The notes under the pieces are model-generated. The model saw nothing but the letters and a program-made list of their open reading frames with translations. It was not told the DNA's origin and searched no databases. The translations under genes and the position numbers were made by a program. Positions 28,318 through 35,625 of a stretch of DNA of 38,709 bases are shown here, piece after piece (the first letter of the stretch is position 1; every line of letters begins with the position of its first letter). The DNA is from Ilumatobacteraceae bacterium (lineage in GTDB: Bacteria; Actinomycetota; Acidimicrobiia; Acidimicrobiales; Ilumatobacteraceae), in assembly GCA_025451395.1 (NCBI GenBank), contig JANWKM010000052.1, positions 1 to 38,709 of the forward strand, in the 5' to 3' direction.

Positions 28318-29276
28318 CCAAGATCTTCCTTCGTCCGGAACCAATCGATCATGCGCGAGAGTCCGTCGCGAAGCGAGATCGTTGGCTCCCATCCATAACT
28401 GTCGCGTACCAGGGAAATATCCGGGCAGCGTTGCAATGGATCTCCCTCGCGCTCGGCAGGAAGCGCCACCCTCGCGATCGAGCTCTTGGAGCCGGTGAGT
28501 TCGATCACCACTTCTGCCAGCTCGCGAATCGTGAACTCGTCGGGGTTACCGACGTTGATCGGCCCGGTCAGGTGGCCGTCGAGTACCGCGGCGAGACCGC
28601 GCACCTCGTCGGCAACGTGACAGAAGCTACGTGTTTGGGAACCATCACCGTGCAATGTCAACGGCTCGTTCCGCAACGCCTGCGTGACGAACGAGTTGCC
28701 CACGCGACCGTCGCGCGGCCGCATGCGTTCGCCATAGGTGTTGAAGATGCGCGCGATTCGAACCGCGACACCGTTGGTGCGGTGGTATGCCATCGCCAAC
28801 GCCTCACTGAAGCGCTTGGCTTCGTCGTAACAGCTACGCGGGCCGATGGGGCTGACGTTGCCCCAGTACGTCTCGGGCTGCGGGTGCACCAGCGGATCTC
28901 CATACACCTCGCTCGTCGACGCCAGAAAGAAGCGCGCGTTTCGCGCCAACGCGAGATCGAGAAGGTTGCGGGTGCCCGTCGAGCCAACAGCGAGTATCTG
29001 CAACGGCATCGTCTTGAAGTCGTTTGGCGAAGCCGGGCTCGCGAGATCGAGCACCACGTCGTACGCATCGTTGGTGATCGAAGTGGGCAGCGGTGTTGTA
29101 ATGTCGTGTTCAACCACCGTGACACTCTTGTTGTCAGCGAGGTGAGCGACGTTGCTGCGCCGCCCCGTCACGAAGTTGTCGACGATGGTGACCTTGTCGC
29201 CGCGACCCACGAGTAGATCGACCAGGTGCGAACCAACAAAACCACCACCGCCCGCAACGAGGTGATGTTGCGTCAT
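28314..29276 (-). CDS. UDP-glucuronate decarboxylase-like (UDP-xylose synthase) SDR
   Basis: 320 aa; VAGGGGFVGSHLVDLLVGRGDKVTIVDNFVTGRRSNV, TSEVYGDPLVHPQPETYWGNVSPIGPRSCYDEAKRFSEAL, RIFNTYGERMRPRDGRVGNSFV. Confidence 0.85.
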   Translation of the reverse strand: MTQHHLVAGGGGFVGSHLVDLLVGRGDKVTIVDNFVTGRRSNVAHLADNKSVTVVEHDITTPLPTSITNDAYDVVLDLASPASPNDFKTMPLQILAVGSTGTRNLLDLALARNARFFLASTSEVYGDPLVHPQPETYWGNVSPIGPRSCYDEAKRFSEALAMAYHRTNGVAVRIARIFNTYGERMRPRDGRVGNSFVTQALRNEPLTLHGDGSQTRSFCHVADEVRGLAAVLDGHLTGPINVGNPDEFTIRELAEVVIELTGSKSSIARVALPAEREGDPLQRCPDISLVRDSYGWEPTISLRDGLSRMIDWFRTKEDLG

Positions 29277-29614
29277 GGTTGGTCCAGCCCGAGAGCGATA
29301 GTCAGTGCGGCATCCAGTTCAGCAAGTTTGAATGGTGGCAGCCGGCCGCGACGCTTCGACAAGACCTCGACCGGAAGTGTGAACACGTTGTCGCAATTCG
29401 CGGCAGATTCATGCGCGAGTCCGTGCTCAGGCCCAACTGACACTTCTGCTACGTGATGGTGATAGGTGCTCGTGACGAGCACGCAAACGAGCGAGGACAA
29501 GATCGGAATTGCTGTGTCCCGAGTGACGATCACGACGGGATGCACCCCGACACCGGGGATCGTCGCATCCCAAATGTCTCCGCGTTGGATCAGCGTTCGT
29601 CGTGAGCGAGGCAA
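29273..29614 (-). CDS. type II toxin, MazF/PemK family
   Basis: IQRGDIWDATIPGVGVHPVVIVTRDTAIPILSSLVCVLVTSTYHHHVAEVSVGPEHGLAHESAANCDNVFTLPVEVL; TTG 29614 is a plausible start within the 29731 ORF; stop overlaps the UXS start. Confidence 0.85.
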   Translation of the reverse strand: MPRSRRTLIQRGDIWDATIPGVGVHPVVIVTRDTAIPILSSLVCVLVTSTYHHHVAEVSVGPEHGLAHESAANCDNVFTLPVEVLSKRRGRLPPFKLAELDAALTIALGLDQP

Positions 29615-29847
29615 GCTGCGGTCGCGAATCGAGAAATGGCCTCGACCAGTTGGTCGTGGTCTGGATCGGGTTGGCCGTAGCGATTTTGGTAGGACATCGC
29701 GATGGAGTCTTCGGAGTGGCGGGCGAGCCACTCGTTGACTGCCGTCGCAATAACGGACCCGCGGTTCGGCGCTAGTCCAGCCGCAACCGCAGAGTCGACC
29801 GCGGTAACGACCGACTCGTCAAGCCTGGTGGTGACAGGAATGCTCAT
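29590..29847 (-). CDS. ribbon-helix-helix-like antitoxin
   Basis: MSIPVTTRLDESVVTAVDSAVAAGLAPNRGSVIATAVNEWLARHSED; immediately upstream of and overlapping mazF-like; ATG 29847 preferred over 29883. Confidence 0.8.
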   Translation of the reverse strand: MSIPVTTRLDESVVTAVDSAVAAGLAPNRGSVIATAVNEWLARHSEDSIAMSYQNRYGQPDPDHDQLVEAISRFATAACLAHDER

Positions 29848-29865
29848 CACTTCAGAATACCACTC

Positions 29866-29882
29866 TGTACACGATTCGTACA
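29866..29882. promoter_or_regulatory. candidate operator of the toxin-antitoxin pair
   Basis: TGTAC-acgattc-GTACA inverted repeat (also a GTACAC direct repeat), 19 bp upstream of antitoxin ATG 29847 and upstream of a TATTCT -10-like box (29854-29859, minus strand). Confidence 0.5.
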
Positions 29883-29907
29883 CACCGCCAACGATCGTGA
29901 TGATGCG

Positions 29908-31188
29908 TCATCGCCCAATTCCGACGAGAGTGAAGCCGGCGTGCTGCCACGCGGTGCGATCGAGCAGGTTGCGACCATCAACCACGCTGCGCCCGGGCAT
30001 TGCAGCGGCAACGTCGGCGGGCGCGATCCATCGGAAGTCGTCCCACTCGGTCAACACAGCCAACACGTCCGCACCAACTATGGCACCTATTGCATCGGGG
30101 CTGATTGTGAGGTCGCCGGGAAGACCGGGCTTGGCAGCGTTGACCGTCGGATCGAATGCCCGAACAGTCGCGCCGGCCGCGATCAGTCTGTTGATAATGG
30201 CGATCGCCGGCGAATCGCGTAGGTCGTCAGTTCGAGCTTTGAAAGTGAGACCCCACACCGCGACGGTCTTACCGCCCAGCGAACCTCCGGCCGCGACGCG
30301 AATCTTGTCGGTGACGCGATCGAACTGTTCGTCGTTGACCGCGATCACGCCCGCGAGCAGATCGAACTCATAACCAGCCTCGGTCGCGATGTTCAACAAC
30401 GCGCGCGAGTCCTTCCCGAAACAGCTGCCACCCCAGCCGGGGCCGGGTCGTAGGTATTCGCTGCCGATGCGCTTGTCGTAACCGATGCCCACCATTACGT
30501 CGTCGACATCGGCGCCGACGCCTTCACAGATTGCAGCGATCGCGTTGACGAAGCTGAGTTTGGTTGCCAGGAACGCGTTGGCCGCGTACTTGATGGTCTC
30601 GGCGGACGCGGGGTCGGTGATGAGGACAGGCGGCCGAATCTCGTCGTACAGCGCAGCAACAGCGATGCCCGCCGCTCGGTCTTCGCAGCCGACCACGACT
30701 CGGTCGGGCCTCAAGAAGTCGTCGACCGCCGAGCCTTCGCGAAGAAACTCAGGATTGCTAACGACTCGCACGTCGGGACGCCGCAACACGCGCTCGACCA
30801 CACGCGTACTTCCGACGGGCACGGTGGACTTGTTGACGACGATGGCTTCGTAGGCAAGTGACTTGGCGATCTCGGCGCACGCTGCTTCCACATAGCTGAG
30901 GTCAGCGGAACCATCTTCGCCCTGAGGTGTGGGAACGCACAGGAAGACGATCTCGGCGTCGGTGACCGCTGCAGCCCCACCGACGACGAAGCGAAGGTTT
31001 CCTTTGTGCAGACCCTCCACCAACAACTCGTCGAGTCGGTGTTCGACGATCGGTACCTCGCCGCGGCTGAGCCGCGCCACCTTGTCGGCATCGGTATCGG
31101 CACACACCACTTCGTGACCGAGGTGCGCGAAGCACACGCCCGTCGTCAGGCCGACGTACCCTGTGCCGATGATTGCGAGACGCGTCAT
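29908..31188 (-). CDS. ugd: UDP-glucose 6-dehydrogenase
   Basis: MTRLAIIGTGYVGLTTGVCFAHLGHEVVCADTD, VNKSTVPVGS, NPEFLREGSAVDDFLRPDRVVVG, GPGWGGSCFGKDSRALL, VWGLTFKARTDDLRDSPAI. ATG 31188. Confidence 0.94.
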   Translation of the reverse strand: MTRLAIIGTGYVGLTTGVCFAHLGHEVVCADTDADKVARLSRGEVPIVEHRLDELLVEGLHKGNLRFVVGGAAAVTDAEIVFLCVPTPQGEDGSADLSYVEAACAEIAKSLAYEAIVVNKSTVPVGSTRVVERVLRRPDVRVVSNPEFLREGSAVDDFLRPDRVVVGCEDRAAGIAVAALYDEIRPPVLITDPASAETIKYAANAFLATKLSFVNAIAAICEGVGADVDDVMVGIGYDKRIGSEYLRPGPGWGGSCFGKDSRALLNIATEAGYEFDLLAGVIAVNDEQFDRVTDKIRVAAGGSLGGKTVAVWGLTFKARTDDLRDSPAIAIINRLIAAGATVRAFDPTVNAAKPGLPGDLTISPDAIGAIVGADVLAVLTEWDDFRWIAPADVAAAMPGRSVVDGRNLLDRTAWQHAGFTLVGIGR

Positions 31189-32087
31189 CGAGACGCGCCC
31201 CTTTCTGCACCGACGGGAGTGAAGCAACGCAGCTCATCGGTGAAGTCGGGGTCGCTCGCGAGCGCCGCCAGCGTGCGGACATCAGGACCCGACAGACGAC
31301 GAACCCTTTCAAGCATCAGCGCCCTACGAGCAAACAACAGCTTGGTGACGACGAGCGAGTGGCCCGCCGACCGATTGAACGGCTCGTCGACATCGAAGTC
31401 GTAAGGATGGGCATACACCCATCGACCGTCGGTGCGGGTGACGCGCTCCGCCAGGTTCACGACCATAGAGGGAACTAAGCGTAGGTACGCACCACCCAGA
31501 ACTGGTAGCCCGAGCGATCCAACAGCGAGAACGGGAGAGGGAAACTCGATCAATCCATTCGACCATTTGAAGGGCCGCTTGGGTGCGCCCCTGTAACCCG
31601 CCTGCGGATTCCACACCGGAAGCACACTCGAGGAATAGGTGAAGCCTGCGTCCTTGATCACATCCGGAGCCCACGGAGTCTTGCGCGTGAGTCCAAAGTA
31701 CGGGGCCCGAAAACCCACGGGCGGAGCGCCGAGTACGTCGGTCAGCACCTTGCGTCCTTGAGCTAGCTGCTCGGCCAAATTCGCTGCGCCCAGATCGCTG
31801 AGGAACTCGTGGGTTTGCCCGTGCAGTCCGATCTCATGGCCGGCGGCGGACAACTCACGCAGTTCATCAGCCCACGAATCAGCGAGTTCGCCTACAACAA
31901 AGAACGTTGCCTTGGTCCCCTGCTGCTCAAGCATCTTCAAAAGAGGTTGCAATGCCTCCCTGAAACGCGAGCTCTCCATCGCGGAGCCGTGATCCTCGAC
32001 ATCGACGGGATCATTGTTGCCACGTCCACGCCCGAGTTGACTGCCCCGGCGACGGCTTGTCTCGTCCAGGACATCATCGGTGCACAT
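31185..32087 (-). CDS. polysaccharide deacetylase (NodB-like); 5' end apparently lost
   Basis: DVEDHGSAMESSRF..., TKATFFVVGELADS, GHEIGLHGQTHEF, PPVGFRAPYFGLT, YAHPYDFD. Conserved sequence stops near 32006; the in-frame ORF beyond it is antisense to the FabH-like gene. Confidence 0.8.
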   Translation of the reverse strand: MCTDDVLDETSRRRGSQLGRGRGNNDPVDVEDHGSAMESSRFREALQPLLKMLEQQGTKATFFVVGELADSWADELRELSAAGHEIGLHGQTHEFLSDLGAANLAEQLAQGRKVLTDVLGAPPVGFRAPYFGLTRKTPWAPDVIKDAGFTYSSSVLPVWNPQAGYRGAPKRPFKWSNGLIEFPSPVLAVGSLGLPVLGGAYLRLVPSMVVNLAERVTRTDGRWVYAHPYDFDVDEPFNRSAGHSLVVTKLLFARRALMLERVRRLSGPDVRTLAALASDPDFTDELRCFTPVGAERGASR

Positions 32088-32726
32088 AACGGCGCGTTTG
32101 CCTTCGATGTGCAGGCCGTGTGCAGTGGGTTCATCTACAGCCTCGGTATCGCGGCCGCGGCGATTACTGCAAGCGCTGCCGATCGAATTCTTGTCATCGG
32201 CGCGGACACTTTCTCAACGATCACGGATTGGAACGATCGATCATGTGTGTTCTTCGGCGACGGAGCTGGTGCGGTCGTGGTCGGTCGCGACGAACTCAGG
32301 ACCGGACTGCTATCCCTCGTACTGCACGCTGACGGCCGCGGTCGGGAGGGATTCTCCGTTCCGAAGGGATCCCCAACCTTCGTGATGAACGCGCAATCGG
32401 TCTACAAGACGGGTATTGATGTTTTGCCTGAAGCCATCGGGGAAGCCCTCGCCCTCGCTGAGCTCGCCATCGACGATGTCGACTGTGTCATTCCCCACCA
32501 ACCATCACGCCGTGTCCTTGATGAGACGGCCTCTCGTCTCGGTATCGCGACCCACATGGTCCGCAAGAATATGGATCGGTTCGCGAACACGGCAGGTGCA
32601 ACAGTGCCTTTGCTTTTGGACGAAACCGTCAGAGGCGGTGAGATCAGCAACGGCGACACCGTCGTTATGGCCGCGGTGGGTAGTGGCTGGACCTGGGGAG
32701 CGGCTGTGTATCGGTGGCAGTCATGA
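31989..32726 (+). CDS. 3-oxoacyl-ACP synthase III (FabH/KAS III-like), N-terminally truncated
   Basis: DIDGIIVATSTPELTAPATACLVQDIIGA...FDVQAVCSGFIYSLG, FGDGAGAVVVG, VIPHQPSRRV, RFANTAGATVPLLL, GSGWTWGAAVYRW. Catalytic C/H/N retained, but about 75 N-terminal residues of the family are missing. GTG at 31989 is a possible start. Confidence 0.82.
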   Translation: MILDIDGIIVATSTPELTAPATACLVQDIIGAHNGAFAFDVQAVCSGFIYSLGIAAAAITASAADRILVIGADTFSTITDWNDRSCVFFGDGAGAVVVGRDELRTGLLSLVLHADGRGREGFSVPKGSPTFVMNAQSVYKTGIDVLPEAIGEALALAELAIDDVDCVIPHQPSRRVLDETASRLGIATHMVRKNMDRFANTAGATVPLLLDETVRGGEISNGDTVVMAAVGSGWTWGAAVYRWQS

Positions 32727-33466
32727 CCGAGCAACGCCGTCGTGTGCTCGTTGCTGCTGGCAACAGCGGTCTGGGCTTGGGCCTTCTCGATCGACTCTTT
32801 GACGACGGCACATACGACTTGTTCGCAACCTACCGCAGAGGGCCAAACGGACTGATCGAGAAGTTCGCCGCTCACGGACTCGATCCCGAGCGCACGGTAT
32901 TGCGAGCCGATCTCATCAACTACGACGATGTTCAGACGGTCGTCGATCAGGCTGCTGCTGGTGGCCCGCTGTGGGGAATCGTGAACATGGCGGGCACCGC
33001 ATCGGCGCAACGCCTCGCCAAGATGGACCCGACGGAAATTCGCACTGTCCTGCTCGACAACTGCCTCTCCGCGATGTATCTCACCAAGGCCGGAGTCAAT
33101 GCGTTCCAGTCGAACGGAATTGGCGGCGGCCGAATCATTCACCTCTCCTCCGTCACCGTGCGTCGCGTCGTTCCAGGCGTCGCTGCGTACAACGCTGCCA
33201 AGGGCGCGGTCGAGGGACTTGTCCGCGGTGCGGCCGAAGAACTTGGGCGGTCGGGCAGCACGATCAACGCGTTGCGACTCGGGTACTTCGACGCGGGGAT
33301 GTCCGCGCATGTTCCACCGGCAATTCTCGAACGGGTCGTTGCTGGAACCGCGTCGCATCGCCTCGGTTCCTCCAACGACTTGGCATCGGCGGTTCGACAT
33401 CTACTGAGTGCCGAGGCGGCATTCATCAACGGCGCCGTCATCGAACTCGACGGTGGACTGATGTGA
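32723..33466 (+). CDS. SDR family oxidoreductase (3-oxoacyl-ACP reductase-like)
   Basis: VLVAAGNSGLGLGLLDRLF, YNAAKGAVEGLVRGAAEELG, AAFINGAVIELDGGLM; ATG 32723 overlaps the KAS III stop. Confidence 0.88.
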   Translation: MTEQRRRVLVAAGNSGLGLGLLDRLFDDGTYDLFATYRRGPNGLIEKFAAHGLDPERTVLRADLINYDDVQTVVDQAAAGGPLWGIVNMAGTASAQRLAKMDPTEIRTVLLDNCLSAMYLTKAGVNAFQSNGIGGGRIIHLSSVTVRRVVPGVAAYNAAKGAVEGLVRGAAEELGRSGSTINALRLGYFDAGMSAHVPPAILERVVAGTASHRLGSSNDLASAVRHLLSAEAAFINGAVIELDGGLM

Positions 33467-34512
33467 CGTTCACTTTTCGGCCGCTTCGACTTCCGGACGA
33501 CGAGAAAATTTTGCTAGATCTGTTGCTGCTCGGTTTTCCGGAACTCGCAGGGACGGTTGCGGGCACGCTCGAACACGTTCGGTGGAAGTTTTCTCGATCG
33601 ACGCAACACGATCTTTGTCTCGTCGGTTTCGACGGCGAGCGCGCCGTGTCGTTCTACGGCGTGATTCCACAGACTTACAAGATCGACGGCAAAGAACGTC
33701 AGATCGGGCTCGTAGTAGACGTGATGTCGCATCCCGAGGTTCGCCGACAGGGTCTGTTCGAGCTAACAGGTCGCGCGGCCATGCACAACCTTGCCGCACG
33801 ACCAATCGAGGGCGTGGAGGGATTTCCCATACGTGACGACGTGATGCCCGGTCACCTCAAGGTCGGCTGGGCAGTTGGGTTCCCGTTGCCGGTCTACGTG
33901 TTGCCCACCGGGTGGCGCCCGGCCACATTCGATGGCGCGCCTCGTTGGTTGGCCGCCTTCGCGCTCTGTGGACTCGCGTACCGGAGCCTCACCAAGCCGT
34001 TGCGCCGGCACAACCTTGGAACAACACGACGACTGACCGTCGAGCAATTTGTCGGCGACTCAGCGGCACAACGCTTGAGCACACTGCAACGCGGCTCCCG
34101 CCTTGTCCGCTCGGCGGACTTCATGCGATGGAGACTCTCGCGACCGGGTGCCGAGTACGCGTGCCTCGTGTGCGAATCCCAGCATGCCGAGGGTTACGCC
34201 ATCATGCGCAATCTTCCCTTGCGAGGAATACCCACCGCCGTCGTGCTGGACATGGTCGTGACCGGAAAACAGGGGATCCGAATGATGGCCGATGCATTGG
34301 TCGAGTATGCACGGGGTGAGCGTCTAACTACGATCGCGATGTGCGCCAATCCGGCACACGCAAAACAGCTACGTCTCGGTCGTGTCGGGTTTCTACGTGC
34401 GCCAATGAAGTTCACGTTGATTCACCGGTCCACATCGGAGCAACCCGTCAGTATGTGGTTTCAGGATGAGTCGAAATGGCAAATGTCGTGGATTGACAGT
34501 GACACCACGTGA
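33463..34512 (+). CDS. GNAT-like acetyl/acyltransferase
   Basis: GTG 33463 overlaps the SDR stop (GTGA); FRPLRLPDDEKILLDLL, GLVVDVMSHPEVRRQGLFELTGRAAMHNLA resembles the GNAT acyl-CoA-binding motif. Confidence 0.75.
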   Translation: MTFTFRPLRLPDDEKILLDLLLLGFPELAGTVAGTLEHVRWKFSRSTQHDLCLVGFDGERAVSFYGVIPQTYKIDGKERQIGLVVDVMSHPEVRRQGLFELTGRAAMHNLAARPIEGVEGFPIRDDVMPGHLKVGWAVGFPLPVYVLPTGWRPATFDGAPRWLAAFALCGLAYRSLTKPLRRHNLGTTRRLTVEQFVGDSAAQRLSTLQRGSRLVRSADFMRWRLSRPGAEYACLVCESQHAEGYAIMRNLPLRGIPTAVVLDMVVTGKQGIRMMADALVEYARGERLTTIAMCANPAHAKQLRLGRVGFLRAPMKFTLIHRSTSEQPVSMWFQDESKWQMSWIDSDTT

Positions 34513-34525
34513 CGGTGCAGTCGCC

Positions 34526-34909
34526 TTATTCACGGCCGCGTCGCGGGGACGGATTGGGATCTGCAGCGCGAAGCGCCTCGATGCGTTGCTCAAGCAACGC
34601 GTTTCGTTCCGCCAGTGTACGGGTCCGCTCGAGGAGGCCCGAGACCGTGATCGATAGTTGCACCGTCAGCGCCAGAAATGCAATCGCGGCTACGGCGATG
34701 ACTAAGGCATTTGACGAGACACCGATGAAGTCGGCGATCGGTCCGACGAGACCGGTAAGCAACCCGCCGATCATGATGCAGACACCAACGAACAACCATC
34801 CAAGCGTGTAGCGCATGGTGAGCCAACCATTACGACTGATCAGGAGAATGCCGGCACAGAAGGAGAGACCACCGACAATCAACACCGCTACCTGCGTGAT
34901 TTGATTCAC
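34526..34909 (-). CDS. DUF2304 family small membrane protein
   Basis: 127 aa, about three TM-like segments then coiled tail (LLERTRTLAERNALLEQRIEALRA), adjacent to a GT2 as usual for DUF2304. Confidence 0.75.
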   Translation of the reverse strand: MNQITQVAVLIVGGLSFCAGILLISRNGWLTMRYTLGWLFVGVCIMIGGLLTGLVGPIADFIGVSSNALVIAVAAIAFLALTVQLSITVSGLLERTRTLAERNALLEQRIEALRAADPNPSPRRGRE

Positions 34910-35625
34910 GACCGAAACTCGCGGTATTGATGGCTCGACCCGATGACCAGCGCCAGTAGCGCCCGAACTAGATAACGCATCGATGCGCTCGTGCCAGCCG
35001 AGGCGGTTCCCCCTGCGCGCTCTCGCATGATGACGGGCATCTCACCGATGCGGTAACCCTGTCGTCCAGCCTGCACCAACACCTCGAAAGTATCGCCGAG
35101 ATAGTGGGTGGGGTATGCCCTGGCAAACTCGGAAAGCAAAGGCTCGCGGATGACCCGAAAGCCCGACGATGCATCAGTCATCCGAGTTCCTGCTGCTTTG
35201 GTAGCAATTCTCGATAGCAACCGCATCGGAATTCGTCGCAAGAACGTCGATCGATATCCGCTGTTCGAGGCGAAGCGACTACCAACGAGCAGGTGGACGT
35301 CGAGTTTCTCCGCTTCGCCGATCATTGCTTGAAGTTCTGCCGGATCATGCTGCCCGTCGGCGTCGCACTGAATTGCCGTGTTGTACCCATTCTCAACGGC
35401 CCAGCGAAAACCGCATCGCAGGGCTCCACCGACACCGAGATTGAACGGCAATTTCAGAGTGGCCGCACCCGCCTCGCGAGCGACTCGCTCCGTTTCATCA
35501 CCCGAGCCATCGTCGACCACGACAACAGGTAGTCCGCCGCTGACAATCGCCCGCACCACAGCGCCGACTGTCGCAACCTCGTTGAACGCCGGAACGATCA
35601 CAACAGACCGTGATTGCGTCGTCAT
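34906..35625 (-). CDS. glycosyltransferase family 2 (DPM1-like)
   Basis: 239 aa; VVIVPAFNEVATVGAVVRAIV, VVDDGSGDETERVAREAGA, NTAIQCDADGQHDPAELQAMI. Confidence 0.92.
   Translation of the reverse strand: MTTQSRSVVIVPAFNEVATVGAVVRAIVSGGLPVVVVDDGSGDETERVAREAGAATLKLPFNLGVGGALRCGFRWAVENGYNTAIQCDADGQHDPAELQAMIGEAEKLDVHLLVGSRFASNSGYRSTFLRRIPMRLLSRIATKAAGTRMTDASSGFRVIREPLLSEFARAYPTHYLGDTFEVLVQAGRQGYRIGEMPVIMRERAGGTASAGTSASMRYLVRALLALVIGSSHQYREFRS

Follow-up and report, generated by a model that had tools for sequence, protein, structure and literature searches.

Spontaneous deletions verified in Salmonella carry microhomologies of about 8 bp or more at their junctions, which exceeds what ligation chimeras would be expected to show (PMC3411829). 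Among MDA chimeras, inverted ones predominate (406 of 475), and direct joins under 10 kb account for only 11 of the 475 (PMC1855051). For the genes at the junction described here, the nearest FabH-SDR-GNAT cassettes are those of Geothrix fuzhouensis (L054) and of a deltaproteobacterial MAG (L055), in which FabH is 56% identical. In both, a full-length FabH diverges from a glycosyltransferase; the ORF starts lie about 195 and 330 bp apart, and FabH has no acyl-carrier-protein gene directly upstream. The cassette (31998-34512 in the window; also L054, L055, L059, L062, and L065) recurs in polysaccharide loci of distant phyla, and some of these loci have a related deacetylase nearby. Its role may be to form an acyl group or to attach one to the polysaccharide; a literature search on the cassette returned nothing relevant and no description of it.

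The window, i.e., the whole stretch of DNA analysed, is one entire contig (C52) of 38,709 bp from a draft genome of 177 contigs and 1.80 Mb (completeness 63%, contamination 0.03%). The contig carries a surface-polysaccharide locus with glycosyltransferases, methyltransferases, a Wzt-type ABC transporter, GalE, a UDP-glucuronate-decarboxylase-like gene, and UGD. The names GalE, Uxs, and UGD were assigned from their own sequence and from relatives. The features around the junction are the following:

29908..31191, minus strand: UDP-glucose dehydrogenase (UGD), the left-flank anchor, 87% identical to that of G007 and syntenic with Uxs and GalE in relatives.
31185..32006, minus strand: polysaccharide deacetylase (CE4/NodB and DUF3473; Pfam PF01522, 2.8e-20, and PF11959, 8.3e-18) with its 5' end lost.
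32007..32087, minus strand: continuation of the deacetylase frame as far as an ATG, running antisense to FabH; none of this sequence occurs in deacetylase relatives.
31809..31997, plus strand: open frame upstream of FabH, which is antisense of the deacetylase and not FabH sequence.
31998-32006, no strand assigned: GACATCGAC, the stretch under both the deacetylase and the FabH homologies and the putative breakpoint microhomology.
31998..32726, plus strand: FabH-like KAS III without about 75 N-terminal residues (PF08545, PF08541; PRK09352, 1.4e-75; PDB 4dfe and others from residue 64).
32714..33466, plus strand: SDR reductase, second cassette gene, intact (PF13561, 6.5e-35; same order in L054, L055, L059, and L062).
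33454..34512, plus strand: GNAT-like acyltransferase, third cassette gene (PF13527, 1.9e-9).
34526..35625, minus strand: DUF2304 protein and glycosyltransferase 2 (GT2), the right-flank anchor (PF10066), near UGD in G031 and G064 and in the same locus in G007 and G006.

UGD overlaps the stop of the deacetylase gene, and a possible start of the SDR reductase (ATG 32723) overlaps the FabH stop. Uxs and UGD are directly adjacent in related genomes; in the window, they are separated by a PemK/MazF-like toxin gene (29273-29883, minus strand; PF02452), upstream of which lies a small ORF, a possible antitoxin. The window UGD is without an insertion seen in relatives. In G014 (L183:1892-4525), this in-frame insertion of about 1.3 kb at residue ~258, beside the catalytic GGSCFGKD motif, has intein splicing and LAGLIDADG domains (Pfam); it is also present in G008 (L184) and, by frame length only, in G049, G087, and G035.

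The deacetylase homology on the minus strand ends at 32006 and the FabH homology on the plus strand starts at 31998, giving an overlap of 9 bp, GACATCGAC. The original prediction had both frames reading through a 12-mer at 31995-32006; a shared stretch was indeed found, but both homologies cover only these 9 bp. As a word, GACATCGAC is unremarkable, with 2 occurrences in the window vs 0.9 expected by chance; the notable point is its position, at the end of both homologies. A join without homology would seldom leave 9 bp of overlap; template switching, single-strand annealing, slipped-strand deletion, and a false join based on overlap all would. Neither reading frame is interrupted at the junction, and the remaining coding sequence has no stops, no frameshifts, and no further decay. 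By codon-usage scoring, the antisense extensions were not distinguishable from the coding frame.

Alignments with deacetylase homologues of the same order start at V28 (VDVEDHG) in the 300-aa ORF, i.e., at base 32006, which is where the homology had been predicted to end. The protein has the NodB domain of CE4 enzymes with the D.ED motif 1 and an H..TH-type metal site (VDVED and HGQTH, read in the sequence); its native start and the first strand before motif 1 are replaced by antisense FabH sequence. Membership in the XrtA system deacetylases (TIGR03006) was rejected, as the match (5e-44, 150.5 bits) is under the equivalog cut-off of 276. In 12 relatives from the same family or order, the start lies 4-11 codons ahead of (L/I/V)D(V/L)ED, and the residues before this motif usually end in FT (M..FT-(L/I/V)D(V/L)ED, e.g., MSFT-IDVED). 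The window deacetylase reads NDP-VDVED, with antisense FabH from that point outward. Judged by these relatives, the loss is small, namely the start codon and about 4-9 codons, and the proposed loss of both 5' ends holds for FabH and, to this extent, for the deacetylase, without a heavy truncation of the latter. It had also been claimed that no ATG, GTG, or TTG start is near, but an in-frame ATG exists at 32085-32087, 27 codons upstream and inside antisense FabH. It gives the 300-aa ORF, and the protein from it is a deacetylase with a 27-residue foreign N-terminus. A search of viral contigs for the deacetylase gave no match. In G038 and G055 (L134:6915-8703 and L135:756-2316), a GNAT-like gene directly follows the deacetylase on the same strand, a pair which may suggest deacetylation and then re-acylation of one sugar.

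For FabH, the homology of relatives starts at D, position 31998, and the best PDB chains align to the 305-aa ORF only from query residues 62-64, equal to chain residues 71-86. We found 117 FabH relatives, of which 3 are cut by the locus edge and were excluded. A start codon lies 60-100 codons upstream of the homology start in all of the remaining 114, in which the upstream sequence is readable. Where relatives were listed individually, the start lies 70-79 codons upstream, and the residues in between form a conserved N-terminal block (GTGSY..P, W...LGI.ER, SDLA..A) that is wholly absent from the window FabH. The prediction that FabH homology begins at about 31998, with roughly the first 75 residues missing, is borne out by both the relatives and the PDB chains. 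The catalytic residues Cys (AVCSG), His (IPHQPS), and Asn (NTAG) are present and align with the PDB chains; the N-terminal lobe that a functional KAS III has in full (~75 residues at its start, G-T-G-S...W...GI.ER) is absent here. Translation from the in-frame GTG at 31989-31991 would give a product still without this lobe. As part of the thiolase fold is gone with these residues, activity appears very unlikely.

The open frames through the junction would suit natural short or overlapping forms of both genes. Such forms were refuted within the sampled relatives, since all 114 readable FabH relatives have a longer N-terminus and none is short; in addition, FabH would be without the first part of the thiolase fold, and the extensions of both ORFs have no homology. 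Natural short forms of orthologues had been named as the finding that would overturn the original prediction, and the comparison of N-termini excludes them; we give this explanation next to no chance. Whatever the mechanism, we are confident that sequence is missing at 31998-32006 and that the genes are not naturally short.

Among the 397 genomes of the order searched, no FabH orthologue was found at E below 1e-54 besides the window itself (no match in the other 396), and the best matches fall in other phyla. This is what a contig chimera of two metagenome organisms might produce. However, the cassette, rare in the order, was probably acquired by transfer, which accounts for this evidence, and the DUF2304 and GT2 genes beyond it share the locus of UGD in related genomes. 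In two genomes of the same family, G031 and G064, UGD-Uxs-GalE lies close to GT2-DUF2304, and the two are oriented to each other as they are in the window. G007 and G006 belong to the same genus and have a UGD with 86-87% identity; here UGD-Uxs-GalE and GT2/DUF2304 share a single locus at a distance of 6-9 kb, and GT2 is reversed. No shift in GC content is seen at the junction, and the tetranucleotide profile to its right differs from the left by no more than left segments differ among themselves. With flanks that share one polysaccharide locus in related genomes and a composition that runs on unchanged, a two-organism contig is unlikely, and the hybrid locus or chimera that had been considered finds no support; its chance seems very slim.

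The reversed GT2/DUF2304 of G007 and G006, opposite in orientation to UGD, would fit an inversion or rearrangement. Under this reading, the divergent arrangement of the deacetylase and fabH is not the original one: one flank would have been flipped, either in the cell or through template switching during MDA. Several FabH relatives have a deacetylase on the strand of FabH, and MDA chimeras are typically inverted (PMC1855051). Against this, the orientation in G031 and G064 agrees with the window, polysaccharide loci of such type shuffle genes anyway, and the FabH cassettes of L054 and L055 show that divergence from the upstream gene occurs naturally. We consider an inversion improbable.

Together, the spacer (195-330 bp), the FabH part (about 225 bp), and the deacetylase part (12-27 bp) give an estimate of about 0.4-0.6 kb for the missing sequence. 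As to the relative with an intact intergenic region that had been sought, L054 and L055 have an intact FabH with a spacer to a divergent glycosyltransferase; an intact copy of this same locus was not found in the 397 genomes of the order searched for FabH, and because of this we infer the parental sequence and both 9-mer copies. In the intact ancestor, a deacetylase-UGD operon would have pointed left and a FabH-SDR-GNAT operon right, with an intergenic promoter region between them. Judging from conserved codons, one parental copy of GACATCGAC would have been in the VDV codons of the deacetylase and one in the DID codons of FabH. Between the copies, the start of each gene (4-9 codons of the deacetylase and ~75 of FabH) would have been lost together with the promoters, most likely by slipped replication or single-strand annealing at this short direct repeat, in the cell. 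As a result, FabH would be inactivated, the deacetylase damaged or silenced, and UGD without its usual promoter.

Between this deletion, taken as a real event in the cell, and a local artefact, we lean slightly to the deletion and give it about an even chance. In its favour, the junction appears to be a direct join with a short microhomology in the range of the Salmonella deletions and fits poorly to typical MDA chimeras. The relatives and the homology overlap support the original proposal that both 5' ends and the promoter region were lost at a short shared sequence. Counting against it, there are no stops or frameshifts in the remaining coding sequence, so that a real deletion would have to be recent; the promoter of the otherwise conserved UGD operon would go too, an intact copy of the locus was not found among the genomes searched, and the draft genome is fragmented. 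The state of the draft (177 contigs, 63% complete) fits a local artefact, in which the cell's intergenic region is intact and a chimeric read, an assembly step, or a scaffolding step collapsed the region at the short shared sequence. An artefact also suits the loss affecting two genes and the promoter region (two promoters) in a single event with no other decay, and false overlap joining or template switching likewise leaves a short shared word at the breakpoint. On the other hand, an overlap of about 9-12 bp is under the word length that short-read assemblers need. A literature search on scaffolder joining by short overlaps found no usable source. The FabH N-terminus did not turn up as a separate piece in the own genome, as expected if the sequence is gone. 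This carries little weight, as completeness of the draft is 63%, and the contigs in a sample of 20 were all above 5 kb, so that short pieces may have been discarded. We give a local artefact somewhat less than an even chance.

A further reading takes the deletion as real and also selected: removal of the shared promoter region would have switched off an acquired lipid/acyl-decoration cassette and changed the surface polysaccharide, with the deacetylase and UGD expressed from a new promoter inside the fabH remnant. We hold this to be highly improbable. The event is of an ordinary kind, either a small deletion or a local sequencing/assembly error, and no new kind of gene arrangement. If real, it would be one more case of small deletions switching off polysaccharide cassettes. 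In any case, the locus calls for caution in annotation, as both genes are callable as proteins of about 300 aa, a plausible length, while about 60 residues of the FabH call and 27 of the deacetylase call are the antisense strand of the neighbour.

Compared with known systems, the deacetylase is 39-43% identical, from the VDVED motif onward, to the DUF3473-type polysaccharide deacetylases of G038, G055, G177, and G210, which have their own start codon and a few residues (e.g., MSFT) ahead of the motif, whereas the window protein is without both. The cassettes of L054 and L055 have the same three genes in the same order and on the same strand, with glycosyltransferases alongside; they differ by a full-length FabH of 316-318 aa and a spacer of 195-330 bp to the divergent gene, both absent from the window. 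Unlike the spontaneous deletions of Salmonella (PMC3411829), the junction is known from an assembled contig alone and is set against an inferred parental sequence. Like them, it would be a direct join, in which the breakpoint shares about 9 bp and a short segment in between has gone.
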